From Campylobacter curvus (lineage in GTDB: Bacteria > Campylobacterota > Campylobacteria > Campylobacterales > Campylobacteraceae), in NCBI RefSeq assembly GCF_013372125.1, contig NZ_CP053826.1, positions 1,364,001 through 1,428,000 of the forward strand: a stretch of DNA of 64,000 bases. The letters run 5' to 3'. Position numbers and translations under genes: made by a program. Positions 47,514-57,519 of the stretch are shown piece by piece. The first letter of the stretch is position 1. Every line of letters begins with the position of its first letter. The notes beneath the pieces were generated by a model, which did not search any database, was not told the origin of the DNA, and saw only the letters and a program-made list of their open reading frames with translations.

Positions 47514-47762
47514 ATGGAGTTTTTACCTTGGGCCGTGATCTTGATGTTGATTTACGTCATATATTTTCTAATGATACGCTATGAAAAGAGGATCGCATCG
47601 CTCAGCAAGATGATAGAGCAAAACAGCGACGGCATAAAAGAAAATAGAGATATGATAGGACAAAACAGATCTTTGATCGAAAAAAACAAACACGATATCG
47701 AAAAAAACGCTAAAAATATAACCACAAATTTAGAGAAGATCGATATAGATTTGGACGATTAA
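47514..47762 (+). CDS. Small membrane-anchored coiled-coil protein
   Basis: An 82-residue protein: one N-terminal membrane helix (FLPWAVILMLIYVIYFLMIR) then a coiled coil with a degenerate repeat of about 7 residues (KENRDMIGQNRSLIEKNKHD, then IEKNAKNITTN). ATG 47514 is preferred to ATG 47508 because AAAAGG then has proper spacing. The last 33 bases overlap the convergent LapG-like gene. Function unknown; topology would place the coiled coil in the cytoplasm or periplasm depending on orientation, with the positive RYEKR after the helix favouring the cytoplasm. Confidence 0.7.
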   Translation: MEFLPWAVILMLIYVIYFLMIRYEKRIASLSKMIEQNSDGIKENRDMIGQNRSLIEKNKHDIEKNAKNITTNLEKIDIDLDD

Positions 47763-48386
47763 GGTTTCCAAAAATTTTTCATTTTTCTCTTTTTGTAATA
47801 AATTTTCATAGGCTTGCATTTTTATATTCACGGGCTCTAAATTTATGTCGTCTTTTTTGAGTCGGTAATATTTTCCGCCCGTCAAACAATACTTTGGCTC
47901 TAAATCATAGCGCTTAGATAGCGGCAAAACGCGAAAACTAAGGTTGTCCAGGATCAAAGGCTCTTGCTTTGTATCTTTCCAAACCGCTAGGACCATATGA
48001 TATCCACCCGAAAATTTCTCCTTGACGATCAAAAGACAGCTTTGATTATCTGCGCCAAGATCTTTTAAGCTAGCCTCTTTCGTGATCGCATACTCCTCGC
48101 AGTCTCCACCTCCACGGCGCAGAAATTCGCCTCTAGTGCTCCATATATCGATGTTTGTATTATAAAAATCATCATATCTTGGTATAAGTGAATTTATATA
48201 AGAATTTACGAGTTCAAGCTTTCTCATGAAATTTTCATCTTTGATTTTTTTCATAAATTTAGCGTAGTGATTTAGTATGTTTTTGCAGCGTTCGTCTTTG
48301 CACGACCCGATATTTTCAGCCAAGAGCTCGAAATTTTGCCCATATGAAACGGCAGCGATCAGCAAAAAGACTAAATTCCTAAACAT
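47730..48386 (-). CDS. Second LapG-like periplasmic cysteine protease (BTLCP family)
   Basis: A 218-residue secreted protein of the bacterial transglutaminase-like cysteine proteinase family. A signal peptide (FRNLVFLLIAAVSYG) precedes a mature domain with the complete catalytic triad: Cys in GGGDCEEYAITK (about residue 95), His in GGYHMVLAVW and Asp in LILDNLSF. The region before the Cys reads NTNIDIWSTRGEFLRRGG, cf. DMEVWGKKDYWATRMEFLGK in the other LapG-like gene at 55084, so it is a diverged paralogue. It is the last gene of the type I secretion operon and overlaps the LuxR-type gene by 8 bases. LapG proteins cut a di-alanine site in the N-terminus of Lap-type adhesins, releasing them. 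Confidence 0.8.
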   Translation of the reverse strand: MFRNLVFLLIAAVSYGQNFELLAENIGSCKDERCKNILNHYAKFMKKIKDENFMRKLELVNSYINSLIPRYDDFYNTNIDIWSTRGEFLRRGGGDCEEYAITKEASLKDLGADNQSCLLIVKEKFSGGYHMVLAVWKDTKQEPLILDNLSFRVLPLSKRYDLEPKYCLTGGKYYRLKKDDINLEPVNIKMQAYENLLQKEKNEKFLETLIVQIYIDLL

Positions 48387-49002
48387 CTCTTTGCTGCATC
48401 AAAAGTACGAGCCCTATCCTGTCTTTTACGCCTAGCTTGTTATAAATAGCCGTAGTATGCGCCTTTACAGTCCTTAATGTTATATTTGCAACATGTGAAA
48501 TTTCACTATTGGTTAGGCCTTGATATATCAGCTGCGATATCTCTTTCTCACGGCTACTAAGCTCACTAAGGCTGTCTTTTTTGATGTCGGCTTTGGCGTA
48601 AGAGCCGGTCAGCTCGCCTATCATCTCTTGGATAAATTCCGGATAAAGCCAGACACTACCTTTATGTATCGCCTCAAAGGCATCGCTAAAGTGGATCTTT
48701 TGCATATGCGAGTTAGCGTAGCCTTTTATCCCGGTCGTAAGTAGCGACTTGCCTTCGCTGAATTTAGGCTCGTTAGTAAGGATCAAAATTTTTAAATTCG
48801 GGAAATTTTGCAAAATTTCGCCGATAAATTTTCGGACATCACCCTTGATAGCGTCTTTATCGATGCCGACGATATCGGTCTTGTCGTTTAAAACGCTCAT
48901 AAAGTCTTTTTTATTGTGCGCAAATTTTACATTTTTGCCAAACGAATAGCCCCTCCATAGGTTATTCAGCGACCCGTTTTGCGTAAATAAAACTACGTTC
49001 AT
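48379..49002 (-). CDS. LuxR-family regulator with a weak receiver domain
   Basis: A 207-residue DNA-binding protein. The C-terminal 60 residues are a canonical LuxR/FixJ helix-turn-helix: LSSREKEISQLIYQGLTNSE, then ISHVANITLRTVKAHTTAIY and NKLGVKDR. The N-terminal 125 residues resemble a response-regulator receiver but lack the usual acidic pair after the first strand (MNVVLFTQNGSLNN); one Asp follows strand three (IVGIDKD), and the Lys is not in the standard KP turn. CsgD-type regulators look similar: a degenerate receiver with a LuxR HTH controlling adhesin and matrix genes. Embedded in the type I secretion operon, so autoregulation of that operon is likely. Confidence 0.8.
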   Translation of the reverse strand: MNVVLFTQNGSLNNLWRGYSFGKNVKFAHNKKDFMSVLNDKTDIVGIDKDAIKGDVRKFIGEILQNFPNLKILILTNEPKFSEGKSLLTTGIKGYANSHMQKIHFSDAFEAIHKGSVWLYPEFIQEMIGELTGSYAKADIKKDSLSELSSREKEISQLIYQGLTNSEISHVANITLRTVKAHTTAIYNKLGVKDRIGLVLLMQQRDV

Positions 49003-49017
49003 GTCCGTCCCCTCATC

Positions 49018-49536
49018 TTATTTGCATATTTTTTCATAAATCATATTTTCATTTATAAAAACAAAAATATGACGCGCCCTGTCCTCTTCTTTTTTATAGC
49101 CATACTCAAAGGTCGATAAAAACTCGAGCACGCGCTTTGACTCTTCGTTTAAAAATATATTCATCTCAAAGCCCTCGTTTGATAAAGCGTATCTATACGG
49201 AGCGCTCAAGGATAGCTTATCCAGGTCAAATTTTAGATTATCGTTGCTCTCGTCGTAGCCTTTTATGACGATTTTTAAATTTTTTATGACCTCGTCTTTG
49301 ATCTTGATGTCATCAAACTTAAAAATTTCACCCTCCTGTGGCCCTTGCGCCAAAATTTCATCAAAGCTTTTAATGCAGTCTGCAAAGACCAGATCTTTTA
49401 TCTCGCGCCCTATCAGGTCACACTCCTCTTTGCCTTTAATGATAACGTGATCTTCTATCGATCTTGGCTTTAAAATTTCATAATCTTTAAAATTTTTATC
49501 GTAATAGGCGTTTTTTACGGCTTTATCAGACATCAT
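49018..49536 (-). CDS. Unknown protein of the type I secretion operon
   Basis: A 172-residue, acidic, Lys-rich soluble protein with no signal peptide, membrane segment or family motif that I recognise. It starts four bases inside the end of the HlyD-like gene (overlap), so it is translationally coupled to the export adaptor. It has a few hydrophobic stretches (LKIVIKGYD, FEMNIFLNEE) and ends with IFVFINENMIYEKICK. By position it could assist the adaptor, the receptor LapD or the substrate; nothing in sequence decides. Confidence 0.6.
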   Translation of the reverse strand: MMSDKAVKNAYYDKNFKDYEILKPRSIEDHVIIKGKEECDLIGREIKDLVFADCIKSFDEILAQGPQEGEIFKFDDIKIKDEVIKNLKIVIKGYDESNDNLKFDLDKLSLSAPYRYALSNEGFEMNIFLNEESKRVLEFLSTFEYGYKKEEDRARHIFVFINENMIYEKICK

Positions 49537-50993
49537 CTCTCCGTCAAAGCGTTGTTTTTAGCTTTTAATATCGGCTTAAGAAGATAATCAAGTATCGTCT
49601 TTTTGCCCGTAATGATATCGGCAGAAACGATCATGCCTACCTTTATGCGAAGCGGCTTTTCCTCGCTTCCAAGATAGTTTTTATCAGTCTCGATACGCAC
49701 TAGATAGTAGCTCTCGCCAGTCTTCTCGTTCGTCTCGGTGTCAGCGCTGATTTGTGTCACCTTTCCTTTAAGCCCACCGTAAATGCTAAAATCATAAGCT
49801 GTGAATTTCACTATCGTATCAAGTCCCGGTCTCAAAAACGCGACATCGGCCGGCTTGACCTTTACCTCAGCTACGAGCTTGTCCTCTAGCGGCACGATCT
49901 CAGCAATATTTTCTCCGGGCTTTATGACACCAGAAATCGTATGCACCATCATTTTACTGACTATGCCGTTTACAGGAGAGCGCACATAGGTCCTTTCGAC
50001 CCTGTCGCTAAGACTGATCTGCGACTCGCTGATACGAGCGATCTCGGCGGAGACTTCGTTTAGCTCCTTTTTGGCGTTATTTTTAAACGCGAGCTTCGCC
50101 TCGGCTATCTTATTTTGCGCCTCTTTTATGGTAGACTCCACACGAGGCAGAGCTAAAACAGAGGCGTCCAGCTCGCCTTTTAGGTCATTTACTCGCCTTT
50201 GAAGCTGGATATACTCGACCTCGCTTACGAGCCCTTTTTTAAATATCGGCTCCATGATAGCCTTTTCTTTTAGCATGAGGTTGTAGCTGTTTTGCGTTTG
50301 TGAAATTTTATTTTTAAGCTCGGTCAGTTCGCTTTGGCGTTGGGTTATCTGCTCGGTTAGAATTCTTATCTGCTCGTCAAGATGCTCTAAATTTGAATTA
50401 TGTAGGCTGATCTCATATTTTATGGCTTTGGTGTTATTTGCGTCGCGCTTTTCGTCATAGACGAATTCTTTATCGTTTGCCTCGGCATCAAGTCGCATAA
50501 ATTTCGCCTCCAGTTCGTCAAGCCTGAGCTTAGACTCTCCGTAGCTACTAGAGAAATTTTTGTTGTCTATCCTTAAAATGATCTGATCTTTTTTGACCTC
50601 GTCACCCTCTTTTACGAAAATCGCATCTACGATGCCGCCTTCGAGGTTTTGTATGGCTTGATTTTTCCCTGACGGGATTATCTTGCCGCTTCCTCTTGTT
50701 ATCTCGTCTATCTGCGCCCACGAAGCCCAAACGATGAGCCAAAAGATCGTAAAGCTAAGAGCGTATAATATCTTTTTAGACGTTGAGGGTGCTTTCGCGA
50801 GCACGGCTTCAGAGAGGCTGGACATAAATTTTAGATCGTATGCGTCATAGTCTTTGGCCTGGATGCCGGCCTTGATATCTTTAACTCCATCAAAGATATC
50901 GGTGCTCGCGCGCTCTTGCTCTTCAAGAGTGCTTGGTTGCTTTGCTTCTTGATCCTCGGTAGGGATTGATTGAGTATTTTTTTCTTCTTGCAT
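49533..50993 (-). CDS. HlyD-family membrane fusion protein (LapC-like)
   Basis: A 486-residue periplasmic adaptor linking the inner-membrane exporter to the outer-membrane TolC. A disordered N-terminus (EEKNTQSIPTEDQ) precedes one membrane helix (SFTIFWLIVWASWAQI, about residues 85-100), a beta-barrel/lipoyl region (GSGKIIPSGKNQAIQNLEGG), a long alpha-helical hairpin coiled coil, and the second lipoyl half with YVRSPVNGIVSKMMVHTISG and VIKPGENIAEIVP, then the C-terminal SADIITGKKTILDYLLKP. It starts 2 bases after the ABC gene. Type I secretion adaptor, not multidrug efflux, by size and partners. Confidence 0.88.
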   Translation of the reverse strand: MQEEKNTQSIPTEDQEAKQPSTLEEQERASTDIFDGVKDIKAGIQAKDYDAYDLKFMSSLSEAVLAKAPSTSKKILYALSFTIFWLIVWASWAQIDEITRGSGKIIPSGKNQAIQNLEGGIVDAIFVKEGDEVKKDQIILRIDNKNFSSSYGESKLRLDELEAKFMRLDAEANDKEFVYDEKRDANNTKAIKYEISLHNSNLEHLDEQIRILTEQITQRQSELTELKNKISQTQNSYNLMLKEKAIMEPIFKKGLVSEVEYIQLQRRVNDLKGELDASVLALPRVESTIKEAQNKIAEAKLAFKNNAKKELNEVSAEIARISESQISLSDRVERTYVRSPVNGIVSKMMVHTISGVIKPGENIAEIVPLEDKLVAEVKVKPADVAFLRPGLDTIVKFTAYDFSIYGGLKGKVTQISADTETNEKTGESYYLVRIETDKNYLGSEEKPLRIKVGMIVSADIITGKKTILDYLLKPILKAKNNALTER

Positions 50994-50995
50994 GT

Positions 50996-53134
50996 TTACT
51001 TCCCGCTAAGTCGTGCCAAAACTTCATCTCTTGGACCGTCTAAAAGAATTTTACCGTTATCCATGACTATGAGCCTATCTACCAGATCGAGCATCGATGT
51101 CCTGTGCGTTATGAGTAGCATCGTTTTATTTTTCATATTTATCTTTAAATTTGCCTTCAGCTTACTCTCGACGGTGCTGTCGAGCGAATTTGTAGGCTCG
51201 TCCAGCAAAATGATAGGACTATCAAGCAAAAATGCTCTTGCCACGGCGATACTTTGGCGCTGTCCGCCACTGATACCGTCGCCTCGCTCGAAAACCGGCA
51301 TGTCAAAGCCCAAAGGATGGGCGTTCACATATTCATCCACTCCGCTTATCTTGGCGGCTTTGATGATCTGCATATCATCGACGTAAGGCGCTTTTTGCAC
51401 GATATTTTCCCTGACCGTGCCTTTAAAGAGCACGACGTCTTGCGGCACATAGCCTATATTTCTGCGAAGATCGGCGGGATCGATTTGATTTATGTCTATG
51501 CCATCTATCAACACCGCTCCTTCAGTCGGCGAATAAAGCCCTAAAATGAGCTTTTGCAAAGTCGTTTTGCCAGAGCCGTTTTTGCCGATTATGCCTACTT
51601 TTTCACCTGCTGATATCACGAAATTTATCCTGTCTAGCGAGCCTTTCGTAGTCTCTGGGTATGTGAAGCTGACATTTTTAAATTCTATCCTTCCGGCGAA
51701 GGAATTTCGTCTTACGAATTTCTTGCCCTCGGGGCGCTCCACTGGCATTTGCATGATCTTGCTAAGGCTGGCGTAAGCAGTCTTTGTCTGCTCGAAATTT
51801 GCCGCCAGCGACGCGACTTGGCCCATTGGAGCGATAGCGCGCGAGCTGAGCATCACTGCTGCGATGAGCCCGCCCATCGTAAGCTGCGTGCCTTGTATCA
51901 TATACACGCCAAGAACAATGATAGCGATCGTGTTTAGCTGCACCAAAAACGATGTGACCGTCGTTATCGAGGTCGTTATCATTTTTGACTTTATGCTTCT
52001 GTTTGCTATCTCGCCGGTGGCCTCTTCCCAGTTCCACTGCACATGGCCGCTAGCTCCCAGCGTCTTTATGGTCTCAAGCCCGCTCAGGCTCTCTATCAAT
52101 ATCCCGTTCTTTGCTGCCGAGGCCTCAAATGTGCTTTTTATCGCATTTTGCAAAGGATCTTTTATAAAAAACGTGTAGCACAAGATAGATAGCATTATGA
52201 CGATAGGCACGATGACTAGGTAGCTGCCTATGAAATATGTGACTATCAAAAATATAAGCGCGAAAGGCAGATCCACGATCGCCGTGATCGAGGCGGAGGA
52301 GAAGAAATTCCTAACGGTGTCGAATTCTTTCATATTGCTGGCAAAAGAGCCGACCGACTTTGGTTTGTTGCTAAATTTCATATCCATGACGCGCTCAAAG
52401 AGCATTGAGCTCATTATGATGTCGCTCTTTTTGCCTGCTATCTCAAGGAAATACGCTCGCACGAATTTCAAAAAAAGATCGATACCATAAACCACGCTCA
52501 CGCCAAGAGCAAGCACCCAAAGCGTCTCTACGGCGTTGTTTGGGACAACGCGGTCATAGACGTTCATCGTAAAAAGCGGACTTGCAAGCACGAATAAATT
52601 TATGATCAAGCTAGCAAGGATCACGTCTATGTAAATTTTCTTAGAGCGCTTTAGCGTCCCCCAAAACCAATGCTCCTTGCCTGTGTCGATGAGCCTCGTG
52701 GAGTTCGTATCCTCCGGGACGAATTCACGCTTTAGATAATAAGCGTAGCCCAAATACTCCTCTTTGAGCTTATCTATCTCGATAGTGCTGCTACCGGAGG
52801 CTAGCTCGGGGGTTATCACGTTTGCCGTATTTTTATCGTGGCTTATGGACTGTAAGATGCACGCCTTTTTACCTCGAAGCATCAAAATGCAGGGCAAAAC
52901 GAGCGGCGAAATTTCCTCGAGCTCTTTTCTGACAAGAGTAGAGGCAAACCCAGCACGAGACGCCGCACGTGAAAAGAGCGACTTCGAGCCGTTTAGCGAA
53001 AAGAGCTCTATCTCCTCGCCGTCCTCGACAGGCAGCCCTATCGTGAGAGCGTCGGCGCTGTAAGGGTTGTTGTGAAGCTTAGTGAAGATGACCAAACACT
53101 CAAGCAGTTCGTCTTTTATATTTTCATTGTGCAT
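50996..53134 (-). CDS. Type I secretion ABC exporter (LapB-like)
   Basis: A 712-residue inner-membrane permease-ATPase. Residues about 1-125 are a peptidase C39-like domain without the catalytic Cys (it starts CLVIFTKLHNNPYSADALTI), the non-cleaving C39-like docking type used by RTX exporters. Six membrane segments follow (about 165-430), then the ATPase with Walker A IGKNGSGKTTLQ, signature ISGGQRQSIAVARAFL and Walker B IILLDEPTNSLDS. LapB-type exporters move large adhesins from cytoplasm through HlyD and TolC. It starts 3 bases after lapD in one packed operon. Confidence 0.9.
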   Translation of the reverse strand: MHNENIKDELLECLVIFTKLHNNPYSADALTIGLPVEDGEEIELFSLNGSKSLFSRAASRAGFASTLVRKELEEISPLVLPCILMLRGKKACILQSISHDKNTANVITPELASGSSTIEIDKLKEEYLGYAYYLKREFVPEDTNSTRLIDTGKEHWFWGTLKRSKKIYIDVILASLIINLFVLASPLFTMNVYDRVVPNNAVETLWVLALGVSVVYGIDLFLKFVRAYFLEIAGKKSDIIMSSMLFERVMDMKFSNKPKSVGSFASNMKEFDTVRNFFSSASITAIVDLPFALIFLIVTYFIGSYLVIVPIVIMLSILCYTFFIKDPLQNAIKSTFEASAAKNGILIESLSGLETIKTLGASGHVQWNWEEATGEIANRSIKSKMITTSITTVTSFLVQLNTIAIIVLGVYMIQGTQLTMGGLIAAVMLSSRAIAPMGQVASLAANFEQTKTAYASLSKIMQMPVERPEGKKFVRRNSFAGRIEFKNVSFTYPETTKGSLDRINFVISAGEKVGIIGKNGSGKTTLQKLILGLYSPTEGAVLIDGIDINQIDPADLRRNIGYVPQDVVLFKGTVRENIVQKAPYVDDMQIIKAAKISGVDEYVNAHPLGFDMPVFERGDGISGGQRQSIAVARAFLLDSPIILLDEPTNSLDSTVESKLKANLKINMKNKTMLLITHRTSMLDLVDRLIVMDNGKILLDGPRDEVLARLSGK

Positions 53135-53137
53135 TTA

Positions 53138-55087
53138 TCATCCAATATTTTTGATCTCATCGATATAAATTCCTTGCATATTCATAATGCCAAGCTCGAG
53201 CAGCTTTTTCTTTTGCTCCTCGTTTTCAACACCGATGGCTACGAGCTTGATGTCTTTAGAATTCATGATAACCTCAAGCGACTGCCTAGTCTGCGCACTG
53301 CCGTTTTCACTAAAAAAGTCTATGATGTTTGCGGCTTGAATTTTAACATAATCAGGATTTAGCTCCTTTAGCCTCTCGATGCTTTTAGCGTCAAGCCCGA
53401 AGTGATCAAAGCCAAAGCCAAAGCCAAATTCCTTGAGCTTGTTCGTAAGCTTTATCACGCTTTGCAAGCTAATATCGTCTTTGTTTGGAATTTCTATATA
53501 GTTTTTAAATTTAGACGAAGCGCTTATTTTCTTAAGCACAGTCTCGAGCTTGTAAAAATTCTCGTCGGAATTTAAAATTTCCTTGCCTAAATTTATCGCC
53601 AAAGAGCCGTCAGGTAAAATTTTGCTAGGTAAAATTTGAGCTATCCTGTTTAAAATATGCAGATCAAGTGCCGCACCAAGGTCGAGTTCGTTTACCATCG
53701 GCATGAAATAAGAAGCCATCTGCCACTTACCCTCATCGTCCACAAGACGCAAGTAAAGCTCGTATTGCTCGAATTTATCATCGCTGCTGGCGACCTTTTG
53801 AGAGGCGAATTTAAACATATCGTTTTGCATGGATTTTGATATGAGGTCTCGGTATTTTTCCTTACCCATGATGAGCGCATTCGTGCTGTCTTTAAAAATT
53901 TTATATGTGAAATTTCCCTCTAAACGCGCATTTGCCAGTGTCACATCAGCTGTCGTCAGCAAAGTGCCTATTTGGCTTTTTGGCTCGTAATCCACTATCG
54001 CGGCGTTTGCCGGATACTCGTTTTCGTTGATGGCAAAATGCTGATACGTTTTTTTCATCTCGTCCATTATCTTTTCCGTAAGGCCGGTAACGCTTTGAGG
54101 ATCTACACTCGGCATCAAGAGCGCAAAGTCGTTGTCATTTAGCCTGGCTATCACGGCGTTAAATTTGCTCTCGTCCACGCAGCTTTTTAAAATTTGAGCG
54201 ATTTTTATGATGAAGCTTTGCCATTTCTCAAAGCCTAAAATTTTCTTTAAATTTACAAGCTCTTTAAAGCTTATAAGCACGATCGCACCGCGAGAATACT
54301 CCTCACTTGCAAGGTATTCGCTAAATTTAGTCTGGAAAAATCTCCTGTTGTAAGCTCCGCTCATGCCGTCTTTATAAAGCAATTCTTGGTATTTATTGAG
54401 CGTAGCGGCCTCTCTTTCAAATATATCCTCGACCTTTTTGACCATCGAGTTCATCGCAAGCACCATCTGCCTAAGATCGGTCGTGAAAGGGATCTTTTCT
54501 TGGATCAAGAATTTATTATCAAGTATCGCTTCGGCTTGATTTTGCACCTTTAGCAAAGGCTTGAATATCGCCTTTAGCCCAAAATAGCTCACCACGAGCG
54601 AGACGGCTATCATCGCAAGCAAAAATTCGAATATATTTTTTATATTGGAGTAAAGCTCGTTATAAGCAAGTGCAGTGCTACCTTGAACGTAAAGAGTGCC
54701 AAATTTCGCCCAGCCGGTCATTATCTCGCTTTGAGCTATCGGAGCTTCAAATTTTGCGAATTTGAAAAACCACTCCGGCACGCCCATAGCTTGGGTAGGT
54801 TGAGAGCTTTCTATCAAAATTTTACCGTCTACGTCCTCTAGCTTTATGAGCTGATAGCGACCGCTGTCAAACATCGAATTTATCATCGTCTCAGCCATCG
54901 ACATATCGTCGGGATCTATGATAGGCTTTAGCGCTAGGCCTAAAGAATTTGCCGTATGCCTGGCGTTTTCACCAAGCTGGTCGTTGATGTAGTTATTCAA
55001 GCTTTTAAAATTCAAATATCCTACCGCCATGAATATCACGATACCAAAAGCTATCACAGCCAACATGATCTGTTTAAATAGTGTCAT
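53138..55087 (-). CDS. lapD: LapD-type c-di-GMP receptor with degenerate GGDEF and EAL domains
   Basis: A 649-residue inner-membrane protein. The order is membrane helix (about 5-25), periplasmic LapD/MoxY-type domain (26-150, with IMTGWAKFGTLYVQG at its end; the Trp here contacts LapG in known LapD), second helix, HAMP (about 173-225), GGDEF-like domain (240-400) and EAL-like domain (410-649). The GGDEF signature is degenerate (RLNDNDF) and the EAL motif is replaced (YLRL); the domains are therefore likely receptors, not enzymes. In Pseudomonas LapD binds c-di-GMP and holds LapG. It overlaps the upstream lapG-like gene by 4 bases (ATGA). Confidence 0.85.
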   Translation of the reverse strand: MTLFKQIMLAVIAFGIVIFMAVGYLNFKSLNNYINDQLGENARHTANSLGLALKPIIDPDDMSMAETMINSMFDSGRYQLIKLEDVDGKILIESSQPTQAMGVPEWFFKFAKFEAPIAQSEIMTGWAKFGTLYVQGSTALAYNELYSNIKNIFEFLLAMIAVSLVVSYFGLKAIFKPLLKVQNQAEAILDNKFLIQEKIPFTTDLRQMVLAMNSMVKKVEDIFEREAATLNKYQELLYKDGMSGAYNRRFFQTKFSEYLASEEYSRGAIVLISFKELVNLKKILGFEKWQSFIIKIAQILKSCVDESKFNAVIARLNDNDFALLMPSVDPQSVTGLTEKIMDEMKKTYQHFAINENEYPANAAIVDYEPKSQIGTLLTTADVTLANARLEGNFTYKIFKDSTNALIMGKEKYRDLISKSMQNDMFKFASQKVASSDDKFEQYELYLRLVDDEGKWQMASYFMPMVNELDLGAALDLHILNRIAQILPSKILPDGSLAINLGKEILNSDENFYKLETVLKKISASSKFKNYIEIPNKDDISLQSVIKLTNKLKEFGFGFGFDHFGLDAKSIERLKELNPDYVKIQAANIIDFFSENGSAQTRQSLEVIMNSKDIKLVAIGVENEEQKKKLLELGIMNMQGIYIDEIKNIG

Positions 55088-55749
55088 AAATCCTCTTTTT
55101 GCATTTTATCTATCAGTTCTAACCATTTCGGGTTTTGTTTTTTATTGCCGCCCGGAACGACCTGCCCCAGCCCCTCTTGCTTTGCGAGATAAAGCGAGTC
55201 GCCGTTAAAGCTATAAACCGGCAAAAGATCAGTCCTTTGTGTCGCGATCTTGATCTTGCCGTTTATGTTGTCTAGTATGAGCGGGATCGATTTTGGCGTC
55301 TCATAATACGAAAGTACCATGTGAGCTTGATTGTATTTTAGAGCCTTGACGTAGGTAAAATATAATTTATCCGTCGGGACTCCAAGCTGCTTTAGCGTAA
55401 AATACTTCGCTATCACGTAATCCTCGCAATCGCCCGCACCCTTACCTAAAAATTCCATCCTTGTAGCCCAATAATCCTTTTTACCCCAAACTTCCATATC
55501 GGTAGTCCATCTTAGCGCATTGAAAAAATCATTGACCTTAACGAGCTTCTCTTGAACGCTCGCATTTTGTAAAGAGGACATCAGCGCATTTAAAGCACTC
55601 GCCCTTCGTCTGGCGTCCTCTCCGTAAATTTGACCCATTTTCGCTATCGTGGAGGATTTTATGAAATCAGCTACCAACCCGCATGCGAAAATAGATAAAA
55701 GAGCGCCAAAACTAAGCGCTCTTAAGGCTTTTACGACCTTTTTGGTCAT
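55084..55749 (-). CDS. lapG: LapG-like periplasmic cysteine protease (BTLCP family)
   Basis: A 221-residue secreted protease. A signal sequence with a hydrophobic run (SFGALLSIFACGLVADF) precedes the mature domain. The LapG hallmark region DMEVWGKKDYWATRMEFLGK leads into the catalytic Cys in GAGDCEDYVIAKYF, His in QAHMVLSYY and Asp in LILDNING. Its substrate in known systems is a di-alanine site in a large outer-membrane adhesin. Encoded directly upstream of lapD, the standard order. A paralogue ends the same operon (47730-48386), which is not the usual layout. Confidence 0.86.
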   Translation of the reverse strand: MTKKVVKALRALSFGALLSIFACGLVADFIKSSTIAKMGQIYGEDARRRASALNALMSSLQNASVQEKLVKVNDFFNALRWTTDMEVWGKKDYWATRMEFLGKGAGDCEDYVIAKYFTLKQLGVPTDKLYFTYVKALKYNQAHMVLSYYETPKSIPLILDNINGKIKIATQRTDLLPVYSFNGDSLYLAKQEGLGQVVPGGNKKQNPKWLELIDKMQKEDL

Positions 55750-55757
55750 ATCCTAGG

Positions 55758-57458
55758 CTACCTTAGATCGTTTTGAATACTGCAAGCACCCTGGATATAT
55801 CTCTTTGCAAAACCAGGCTCGAAGCTGTCAGAGATCATACCCATGTTGTCAAGCAGCCTAAATTTCGCATAAAGCAGCGCCGTTTCGGTATTTATTATCT
55901 CTTTTAGCGCGGTATTGTATTCGCTCTCTGCATCGAGCAAATTTATAAGGTCGCGGCGGCCTATCCTAAATTCGTCCTGATATGCGTCCAGCGTCGCTTT
56001 AGCGTATTCGACGTGCTGATTTAAGTAGCTCATTTTTTCCTGTTCTAAAGTGTAGTTTTGCCACGAAAATTCCAAAGACTCTCTAAGCTCTCTTAAGAGA
56101 TTGTCCAAAGTTTGCTGCTCTTGTTGCACTGCCAGTCTGCTTTTTTCTTTATCTAGCTTGTCGTTTCCTTTGTTATAAAGGTTGTAGTTTAGCCTCACGA
56201 GCGCATCGAAAGTCTGCTCCTCGTAATTATCATAAAGCACGTTCGTGTGATCGTATCCGCCAGATACTACCAAATCGACCTTTGGTAAAAACGGCGCATT
56301 TTTCTCTTTTACCACCGACTCGGCCATTGCGATGTTTGATCGCTGCACCAATAAAGACGGGTTACAAAGCATCGCTTTATCATAAACGGCTTGTTTTGTC
56401 GCAGGTAAAGGAAGCGTGAAATCAGGCATTATCAAATTTTTAGCCTCTACCTTTTTGCCATATAGCTTTTCAAACGTAGAGAGCGCATCCTCGTAATTAT
56501 TTTTTGCAGCCACATAGTTTGACTGAGCCAAGGTGTAGCGAGAGCCGGCCTGACGCTGCTCGGAGACTATACCGTATCCTGACTGCGCCCTGTCTTTGAT
56601 CTGATCGAAAATTTCTTGATGATTTTTGACGTTTTGCTCTTCTACCTCTAAAATTTTCTTGGTTTTTATGACTTCCAGATACGCATTAGTCATGCTTAAA
56701 GACAGCCTATCGGCAGCCTGAGCCACGCTGTAAGCAGCCGAGTCCATGCGAGCGCTTTGAGAATTTATCCTGTTTTTATCTGCGCCGCCGTTATATAAAT
56801 TTTCGACTAAAGTCAAAGTAGCGCCAGACACCCTGCCGTCGCCTTTTTGTGTCGTTATGCCGTTATCAAGGCGTTTTCTCTCGTATCCCACGCGACCTGA
56901 AGCGTCTAGTGTCGGATAGTAAGCGTTTTTAGCCATATTTAGGTCTTTGCCCACTTGTAGATAGTTAAATTCGACCGCTTTTAAATTTGGATTTTCGTTC
57001 AAAACGGACCTTACGACATCGTTTAGGGCCAAAATACTATCGTCACTCTTTTGTGCAGGCGCTTGATCCGGCTTTGCCATCGCTTGCTCGATGCCGACTT
57101 TGGTATCGCCGGTGCTATTTGCAATAGAATTTTCATTTGTAGTTTGATTATCTTTGCGTTTCATGAACGCATCTTTATATCCCGACGCGTCTCTTACCTT
57201 GCCTAGTAGCTCGTTAGCCTGCGCGGCGGAGACTGGCGTAGTATCGACATAGACGAATTTTCGTCCGTTTAGATCGTAGCTTCCCACACTTAGCCTGGAG
57301 TCTTGCGAAATTTTATCGCTTATCTCTTTTACTACGTTGTTTACTCTGTTTTGATCGCCGTTTTGGCTAAACGTAGCGACGAAGATCCTATAAGACATAT
57401 CCTGTGCGGACAACACCATAGCGGCCGTAAGAGCGCTGATTGCAAACATTTTTTTCAT
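55758..57458 (-). CDS. TolC-family outer-membrane protein with N-terminal SPOR-like domain (LapE-like)
   Basis: A 566-residue outer-membrane channel. After a signal peptide (FAISALTAAMVLSAQ), residues about 20-95 look like a SPOR-type fold (MSYRIFVATFSQNGDQNRVN, then GRKFVYVDTTPVSAAQANEL), a sequence that binds peptidoglycan in other proteins. From about residue 145 the TolC repeat pattern follows: ALNDVVRSVLNENPNLKAVE, LTLVENLYNGGADKNRI, long helices, and the second repeat with VRLNYNLYNKGNDKLDKEKS. It is the first gene of the secretion operon; promoter at 57514-57519. SPOR-TolC fusion is unusual for type I secretion channels I know. Confidence 0.85.
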   Translation of the reverse strand: MKKMFAISALTAAMVLSAQDMSYRIFVATFSQNGDQNRVNNVVKEISDKISQDSRLSVGSYDLNGRKFVYVDTTPVSAAQANELLGKVRDASGYKDAFMKRKDNQTTNENSIANSTGDTKVGIEQAMAKPDQAPAQKSDDSILALNDVVRSVLNENPNLKAVEFNYLQVGKDLNMAKNAYYPTLDASGRVGYERKRLDNGITTQKGDGRVSGATLTLVENLYNGGADKNRINSQSARMDSAAYSVAQAADRLSLSMTNAYLEVIKTKKILEVEEQNVKNHQEIFDQIKDRAQSGYGIVSEQRQAGSRYTLAQSNYVAAKNNYEDALSTFEKLYGKKVEAKNLIMPDFTLPLPATKQAVYDKAMLCNPSLLVQRSNIAMAESVVKEKNAPFLPKVDLVVSGGYDHTNVLYDNYEEQTFDALVRLNYNLYNKGNDKLDKEKSRLAVQQEQQTLDNLLRELRESLEFSWQNYTLEQEKMSYLNQHVEYAKATLDAYQDEFRIGRRDLINLLDAESEYNTALKEIINTETALLYAKFRLLDNMGMISDSFEPGFAKRYIQGACSIQNDLR

Positions 57459-57513
57459 CGTAAAATCCTTTTTATTTTGGCTCGATAAAACACGTCGTTT
57501 CTATGAGCCGTTT

Positions 57514-57519
57514 ATTATA
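57514..57519 (-). promoter_or_regulatory. -10 box of the type I secretion operon
   Basis: On the minus strand TTATGTATAATAAACG gives TATAAT about 55 bases before the TolC-like ATG. No other promoter of this quality is seen within the eight-gene operon. Confidence 0.6.

Follow-up and report, generated by a model that had tools for sequence, protein, structure and literature searches.

Introduction

The Lap system of Pseudomonas fluorescens comprises the adhesin LapA, the export proteins LapB, LapC and LapE, the receptor LapD and the protease LapG. In the published Lap systems that we considered, the receptor holds the protease, so that cyclic di-GMP (c-di-GMP) decides whether the adhesin is released. 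Homologues of LapD and LapG have been discussed for Pseudomonas, Legionella and Vibrio (PMC3032553, section 13). In Shewanella oneidensis, the export, LapG and LapD genes of the Bpf system (bpfA, aggABC, SO4321, bpfG, bpfD) lie in one predicted operon (PMC4523816), and in Vibrio cholerae, LapDG controls the adhesins CraA and FrhA from a lapDG operon without adhesin genes (PMC6890996). Here, we analyze an eight-gene locus of Campylobacter curvus that encodes the export machinery, a LapD-type receptor, a LapG protease (LapG1) and a second protease of the same C93 family (LapG2). It lies on the minus strand at positions 47730-57458 of a 64,000-nucleotide window (RefSeq assembly GCF_013372125.1, contig NZ_CP053826.1, positions 1,364,001 to 1,428,000). 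Judging from sequence comparisons, the locus would encode a Lap-type adhesin switch, to which LapG2 adds a protease that is not restrained by LapD and acts on the same adhesin and exporter pathway, a reading to which we assign a probability of roughly 0.7.

All parts of the P. fluorescens Lap system have counterparts in C. curvus that match by family and key residues. The C. curvus system differs in that its adhesin gene is unlinked, and in that its operon additionally contains genes for a DUF5416 protein, a LuxR regulator and LapG2. The LapD motifs differ as well, being ELY and NDNDF in C. curvus and KVL and RGGEF in P. fluorescens (PMC3032553). The Bpf system of S. oneidensis likewise groups the export genes with those for LapG and LapD, but its adhesin gene is adjacent, an OmpA-like gene takes the place of those for DUF5416 and LuxR, and its description in the part of PMC4523816 available to us mentions no second protease. 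As in V. cholerae, the adhesin of C. curvus is encoded outside the operon; going by the published description, what sets C. curvus apart is the second C93 protease among the exporter genes.

Two other members of the family are relevant for LapG2. DvhG of Desulfovibrio vulgaris, a LapG-like protease, has the catalytic C-H-D triad and a calcium motif, its pocket for the LapD tryptophan is apparently occluded, and it cuts retention adhesins (PMC13090378). It is therefore a precedent for an active adhesin protease that is not built for LapD binding. However, DvhG is anchored in the membrane and paired with a receptor of its own, DvhD, whereas LapG2 coexists with LapD and LapG1 in an operon without such a receptor. 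The DvhG architecture (an N-terminal membrane helix, a linker of about 180 residues and a dCache/HD-GYP partner, DvhD) does not apply to LapG2, which with 218 amino acids (aa) has no room for the linker, and the Pfam scan found no HD-GYP domain among the eight operon proteins. Caulobacter HvyA, a BTLCP/C93 protein like LapG2, is predicted to be periplasmic and, differently from Lap proteases, acts in capsulation (PMC4241560).

The Lap system itself, adhesin-free lapDG operons and the grouping of export genes with lapG and lapD were thus already known. An earlier reading of the same DNA, made from its letters alone (the original prediction), had called the combination of export, receptor, protease and regulator genes unusual; it is instead the rule in the genus, where we found it at 44 loci, and S. 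oneidensis has a similar one. What is new is the two-protease variant, together with the split of C93 proteases across the order into LapD-linked and LapD-free clades. Among the literature matches listed, the titles and the openings of the abstracts name neither a Campylobacter Lap system nor a genome with two LapG-type proteases. If our reading is true, a second protease that escapes the receptor breaks the rule stated above, which would explain how adhesin could be shed at high c-di-GMP levels. The finding also assigns a defined adhesion switch to Campylobacter, and the relatives of LapG2 include records from C. concisus.

Two clades of C93 proteases

LapG1 (55084..55749, minus strand, 221 aa) matches PF06035 (Peptidase_C93) with an E-value of 5e-15, and LapG2 (47730..48386, minus strand, 218 aa) does so with 1.1e-12. 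In structure searches LapG1 matched PDB entries 4u65_E (8e-51) and 4fgo (5e-48), and LapG2 matched the same two (4fgo, 4e-16; 4u65, 6e-16), its own predicted model being weak (predicted local distance difference test, pLDDT, 60.7). We take 4u65 to be LapG of P. fluorescens and 4fgo to be that of Legionella pneumophila, assignments that are in part our assumption and in part follow PMC4359373. The catalytic C-H-D residues are present in both proteins, and LapG1 also retains the neighbouring acidic residues D/E/D.

The two proteases differ in the residues that contact LapD. For the alignment, the register was anchored on the catalytic cysteine, presumably C135. This register gives Y at position 108 and the expected letters at the four positions A169, Y176, V205 and Y206, at which LapG has been cross-linked to LapD (PMC4359373, section 11). 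All 19 genus LapG1 sequences aligned have A, Y, V and Y there, so that LapG1 carries the full set of LapD-contact residues. LapG2 of C. curvus reads Y-W-K-Y and lacks this set; in 18 of 18 genus LapG2 sequences A169 is replaced by Y and Y176 by W, and the V205 position is occupied by K, D, E, M, L, S or T, the equivalent of Y206 being retained.

This difference extends beyond the genus. We searched 198 genomes of the order, an even sample of a larger group, and found C93 proteins in 51 of them (87 matches in total) and LapD in 54. The loci fetched from order and genus gave 122 distinct sequences, of which near-identical genus rows were thinned to leave 100; a first tree was built from these and the two solved LapG chains, 102 sequences together, and a second tree of 101 sequences left out the most divergent one, L168. 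Both trees separated a clade A, containing LapG1 and the two solved LapG proteins, from a clade B containing LapG2, and in the second tree the two clades form the two sides of one branch with a Shimodaira-Hasegawa-like approximate likelihood ratio (SH-aLRT) support of 86. At the four contact positions the pattern [ASP][YF][VI][YF] was found in 62 of 65 clade A sequences and in none of the 37 from clade B, of which 36 retain C-H-D. The neighbourhoods divide in the same way across the order: a same-strand LapD gene lies no more than 1.6 kb downstream in 52/52 cases for clade A, in 0/30 for clade B and in 0/5 for C93 matches outside the tree, two of these five being strong matches whose loci were not fetched. 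In the C. curvus operon itself, four genes separate lapG2 from lapD.

Since LapG2 belongs to a separate clade, lacks the contact signature and has no lapD neighbour, the original prediction is probably incorrect in treating it as a further arm of the LapD switch. We consider LapG2 to be an old and separate protease, to which, as far as alignments can tell, LapD is unlikely to bind. The possibility that LapG2 is a recent copy of LapG1, which would place the genus LapG1 and LapG2 sequences in one clade, was rejected by an approximately unbiased (AU) test (p-AU 3.95e-8), a value to be read with the reservation that the test used a quick tree, gave a long-branch warning and addressed a group chosen after the first tree.

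Some proteins of either clade deserve mention in their own right. In the LapD-linked LapG proteins L154 and L159 (genomes G072 and G015), the positions aligned with C-H-D read C-H-G. In genome G154 (locus L057), which has a clade B protease and no LapD match, the protease gene is preceded by an ORF (open reading frame) of 619 aa, and the two genes before that resemble an IS21-type pair by eye.

Within the genus, LapG2 follows the LuxR gene in 18 of 48 genomes, in 17 of them in one piece and in G236 with the operon on two contigs. Relatives were found at nine loci in named genomes, among them C. concisus (four), C. majalis and C. gastrosuis. Identities were 63-74% for these three species and one Campylobacter metagenome-assembled genome (MAG), 45% for a second Campylobacter MAG and 32% for a Rhizobium protein. 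Besides the catalytic cysteine, C29, C34, C117 and C167 are invariant in 11 genus LapG2 sequences (alignment A2) and may form disulphides. The final 13 residues of C. curvus LapG2 (window 47730-47771) are unlike those of 17 aligned relatives, and the end of its gene overlaps a converging 84-aa ORF by 33 bp, compared with 4 bp at the other loci measured.

The receptor and the adhesin

LapD (53138..55087, minus strand, 649 aa) matches PF16448 (LapD_MoxY_N; 6.9e-37) and PDB structures 3pjw, 6pwj and 4u64. It has the output domain, the GW loop and degenerate GGDEF and EAL domains. The equivalents of W126, which is the LapG-binding tryptophan of the GW loop, E262 and R450 are kept in 43 of 43 genus LapD sequences; in most of these NDNDF replaces GGDEF, and EL[YF] replaces EAL, the C. 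curvus protein having ELY. The c-di-GMP site is unusual, with I at the E617 position in 40 of the 43 sequences and A at the F566 position in 37. The number E617 and the EAL ligand positions are ones that we assume; if they are right, the EAL domain would be catalytically dead. Chain 6pwj, which we take to be V. cholerae LapD, also lacks this Glu. Thus, although the equivalents of F566 and E617 are lost, the conservation of those of E262 and R450 makes it likely that LapD binds c-di-GMP. In eight f8 genomes (G040, G066, G122, G149, G157, G171, G184 and G190), the LapD output domain was matched in two pieces, as if by an insertion, within frames of 734-748 aa. Four genomes of the order (G050, G087, G128 and G129) have a LapD_MoxY_N match and no C93 protease match.

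The original prediction had postulated a surface adhesin without seeing one, and such a protein is indeed encoded in the genome. Coordinates given so far are window positions; those marked G000:C1 refer to the contig of the same genome (1.97 Mb, one contig). The only protein of the genome above the cut-off of the retention_LapA model (76.7 bits, cut-off 50; five more matches lie below) is a giant retention adhesin of 3,790 residues at G000:C1:359994-371366 (L009:9994-16000 plus L010:1-5366), outside the window. It consists of an N-terminal retention module, an LEETAAGG motif that contains the [T/A/P]AAG site, and a long repeat array with Ig-like matches. Of the 46 genus genomes with a retention match, the locus was fetched for 30; in the best retention protein of each of these, without exception, the retention module is followed by TAAG. 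The array is made up of 300-bp tandem units, of which 17.3 copies in the tested part are 100% identical, and because of this identity the length of the adhesin may change easily by recombination. On the contig, about 1.04 Mb separate its gene from the operon, which by itself thus falls short of the full switch that the original prediction had made of it; its export machinery, receptor and canonical LapG, together with the adhesin elsewhere in the genome, do supply the parts of one. Presumably, the exporter of the operon carries this adhesin.

Some genus genomes contain many retention-module proteins beside a single LapD, with up to 13 matches at E <= 1e-5, for example in G213. Two GGDEF-EAL genes lie upstream of the C. 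curvus adhesin gene (G000:C1:352870-355191 and 355912-358164); between the end of the nearer one and the adhesin gene there are 1.8 kb and three ORFs. The GGDEF-EAL pair could possibly be a local source or sink of c-di-GMP.

The canonical part of the system is conserved across the genus. The core order TolC-LapG1-LapD-LapB-HlyD, tightly spaced and followed by LuxR, was found at 44 genus loci, including that of C. curvus, which argues that the arrangement is not due to chance and that the operon is the normal state in the genus. Of 48 genus genomes, 45 encode LapG, and exactly these 45 also encode LapD; retention-module proteins occur in 46. Three genomes lack both LapG and LapD: two complete ones, in which there is no retention protein either, and G235 (68% complete), which has two retention matches.

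Proposed mechanism and alternative explanations

In the mechanism that we propose, TolC, LapB and HlyD would export one giant adhesin that is encoded elsewhere in the genome, and its N-terminal retention module would stay in the exporter, thereby anchoring the adhesin. At high c-di-GMP levels, LapD would bind c-di-GMP and capture LapG1 via its periplasmic tryptophan loop, and the adhesin would stay; when c-di-GMP falls, LapG1 would be freed and cleave at TAAG, and the adhesin would be shed. As the LapD-contact surface is not kept in LapG2, LapD should not restrain it, and LapG2 would probably act on the same adhesin and exporter pathway under another control. Gene content, conservation, the adhesin with its retention module and TAAG site, and the division of the clades by contact residues and gene neighbourhood are observations; from them we infer that LapG1 cleaves the adhesin, as well as all activity of LapG2, including its substrate. 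The more specific proposal, namely that Campylobacterales have a two-protease Lap system in which an ancient LapG2 processes the same retained adhesin without LapD, and so provides another way of releasing or processing it, one that c-di-GMP would not stop, is a tentative one.

Several observations weigh against our reading, in addition to the reservation about the AU test and the unusual LapD site mentioned above. The C-terminal part of the adhesin has no Pfam or NCBIfam match. Across the order, genus included, the retention model is above its cut-off in 15 of 198 genomes (40 at E <= 1e-5), compared with 51 for LapG and 54 for LapD, so that co-occurrence is not tight. Of the 45 genus genomes with LapG, 27 lack LapG2, which is therefore dispensable. 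In G194, blastp labelled the ORF that precedes the clade B gene as LapD, the LapD_MoxY_N model having no match on that contig. Furthermore, LapD and the targeting helix of the adhesin may bind the same face of LapG (PMC13090378, section 8; PMC4359373), in which case the loss of contact residues in LapG2 could equally mean that it has a different substrate.

The latter possibility is the most serious rival, and it is on a par with the tentative two-protease proposal: LapG2 might act on another envelope protein, as HvyA does, and be in the operon just for co-expression. HvyA shows that BTLCP proteins can have roles outside Lap systems (PMC4241560), and the TAAG motif of the adhesins is the same whether or not a genome encodes LapG2. 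Of the clade B genes, 26 come from outside the genus, and the listed neighbours of 18 of these include no adhesin-like ORF, exporter, LuxR or receptor-like gene, although several of these loci are only 3.3 kb long. On the other hand, LapG2 stands at the end of an exporter operon in its 18 genus genomes, and some clade B genes are neighbours of adhesin genes. In G048 and G169 the clade B gene comes directly after a giant retention adhesin, downstream of TolC-LapG1-LapD-LapB-HlyD-LuxR; in G108 it follows retention-type ORFs, and in G106 a giant ORF whose retention match is below the cut-off.

The reading of the original prediction, with one LapD restraining two adhesin proteases, LapG1 and LapG2, is unlikely. 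The two belong to one family and one operon, have C-H-D in common and share Y206, but the replacements at A169, Y176 and V205 in LapG2 and the fact that none of the 30 clade B genes adjoins LapD speak against a shared receptor.

It is still less probable that LapG2 has no protease activity and serves as a decoy, or that it is a relative with a chaperone-like role. The equivalent of Asp137, beside the catalytic Cys, is Glu in genus LapG2 proteins, and the motif that holds Asp137 is, we assume, the calcium site; however, retention of C-H-D by all but one of the 37 clade B sequences is not expected of a dead enzyme. The idea that the cargo of the exporter is a small secreted protein or toxin, with no adhesin being retained, can draw on the position of the adhesin gene outside the operon, but is very improbable given that a retention adhesin with TAAG is present, that the exporter is the sole member of its family above the cut-off, and that the exporter locus and retention proteins co-occur across the genus.

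Other features of the operon

The ORF list of the window contains eight packed minus-strand ORFs at 47730-57458, separated, in gene order, by 8, -4, 3, 2, -4, 15 and -8 bases; the tight spacing and the gaps of -8 to +15 bases reported in the original prediction were thus reproduced. Profile matches also bore out its assignment of TolC-, LapG-, LapD-, LapB- and HlyD-like proteins, a LuxR regulator and a second LapG-like protein, and the gene it had left as unknown belongs to the DUF5416 family.

The TolC-like outer-membrane channel (55758..57458, minus strand, 566 aa) matches Pfam OEP (1.2e-46) and scores 224.8 bits against TIGR01844, just under the cut-off of 225.15. The LapB/LssB-type ATP-binding cassette (ABC) exporter (50996..53134, minus strand, 712 aa) reaches 937 bits against TIGR03375 (cut-off 693) and is the only one of 14 matches to this model in the genome that exceeds the cut-off. 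With the HlyD/LapC-type adaptor (49533..50993, minus strand, 486 aa; TIGR01843, 394 bits, cut-off 209), the LapB/LssB exporter has both its HlyD and TolC partners.

The DUF5416 protein (49018..49536, minus strand, 172 aa; PF17437, 3.9e-80, 268 bits) is present in 41 of 48 genus genomes. Its gene lies between those for HlyD and LuxR at 39 of the 44 genus loci, LuxR following HlyD directly at the other five. The predicted structure (pLDDT 87.6; predicted template modelling score, pTM, 0.60) gave weak structural matches, to Ig-like folds only. The LuxR/GerE regulator (48379..49002, minus strand, 207 aa; GerE, 6.7e-15) showed no receiver domain in its N-terminal half in the Pfam scan, and its score against the CsgD model was 41.5 bits, under the cut-off of 250.

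The original prediction had named a strong -10 box. The sequence TATAAT can be read on the minus strand at 57514..57519 as the -10 box of a predicted operon promoter, and TATAAT recurs in the 140 bases that precede the tolC ORF at 36 of 42 genus loci (those with a tolC ORF of at least 540 aa), a count made against an AT-rich background with no shuffle control. The TATAAT at 57519-57514 is not among the sites listed by a sigma-70 consensus promoter scan. The eight genes are probably carried on one transcript. At individual genus loci genes are broken: TolC is split in G200 (L095), LapD and LapB are split in G232 (L125), and DUF5416 is interrupted in G215 (L110).

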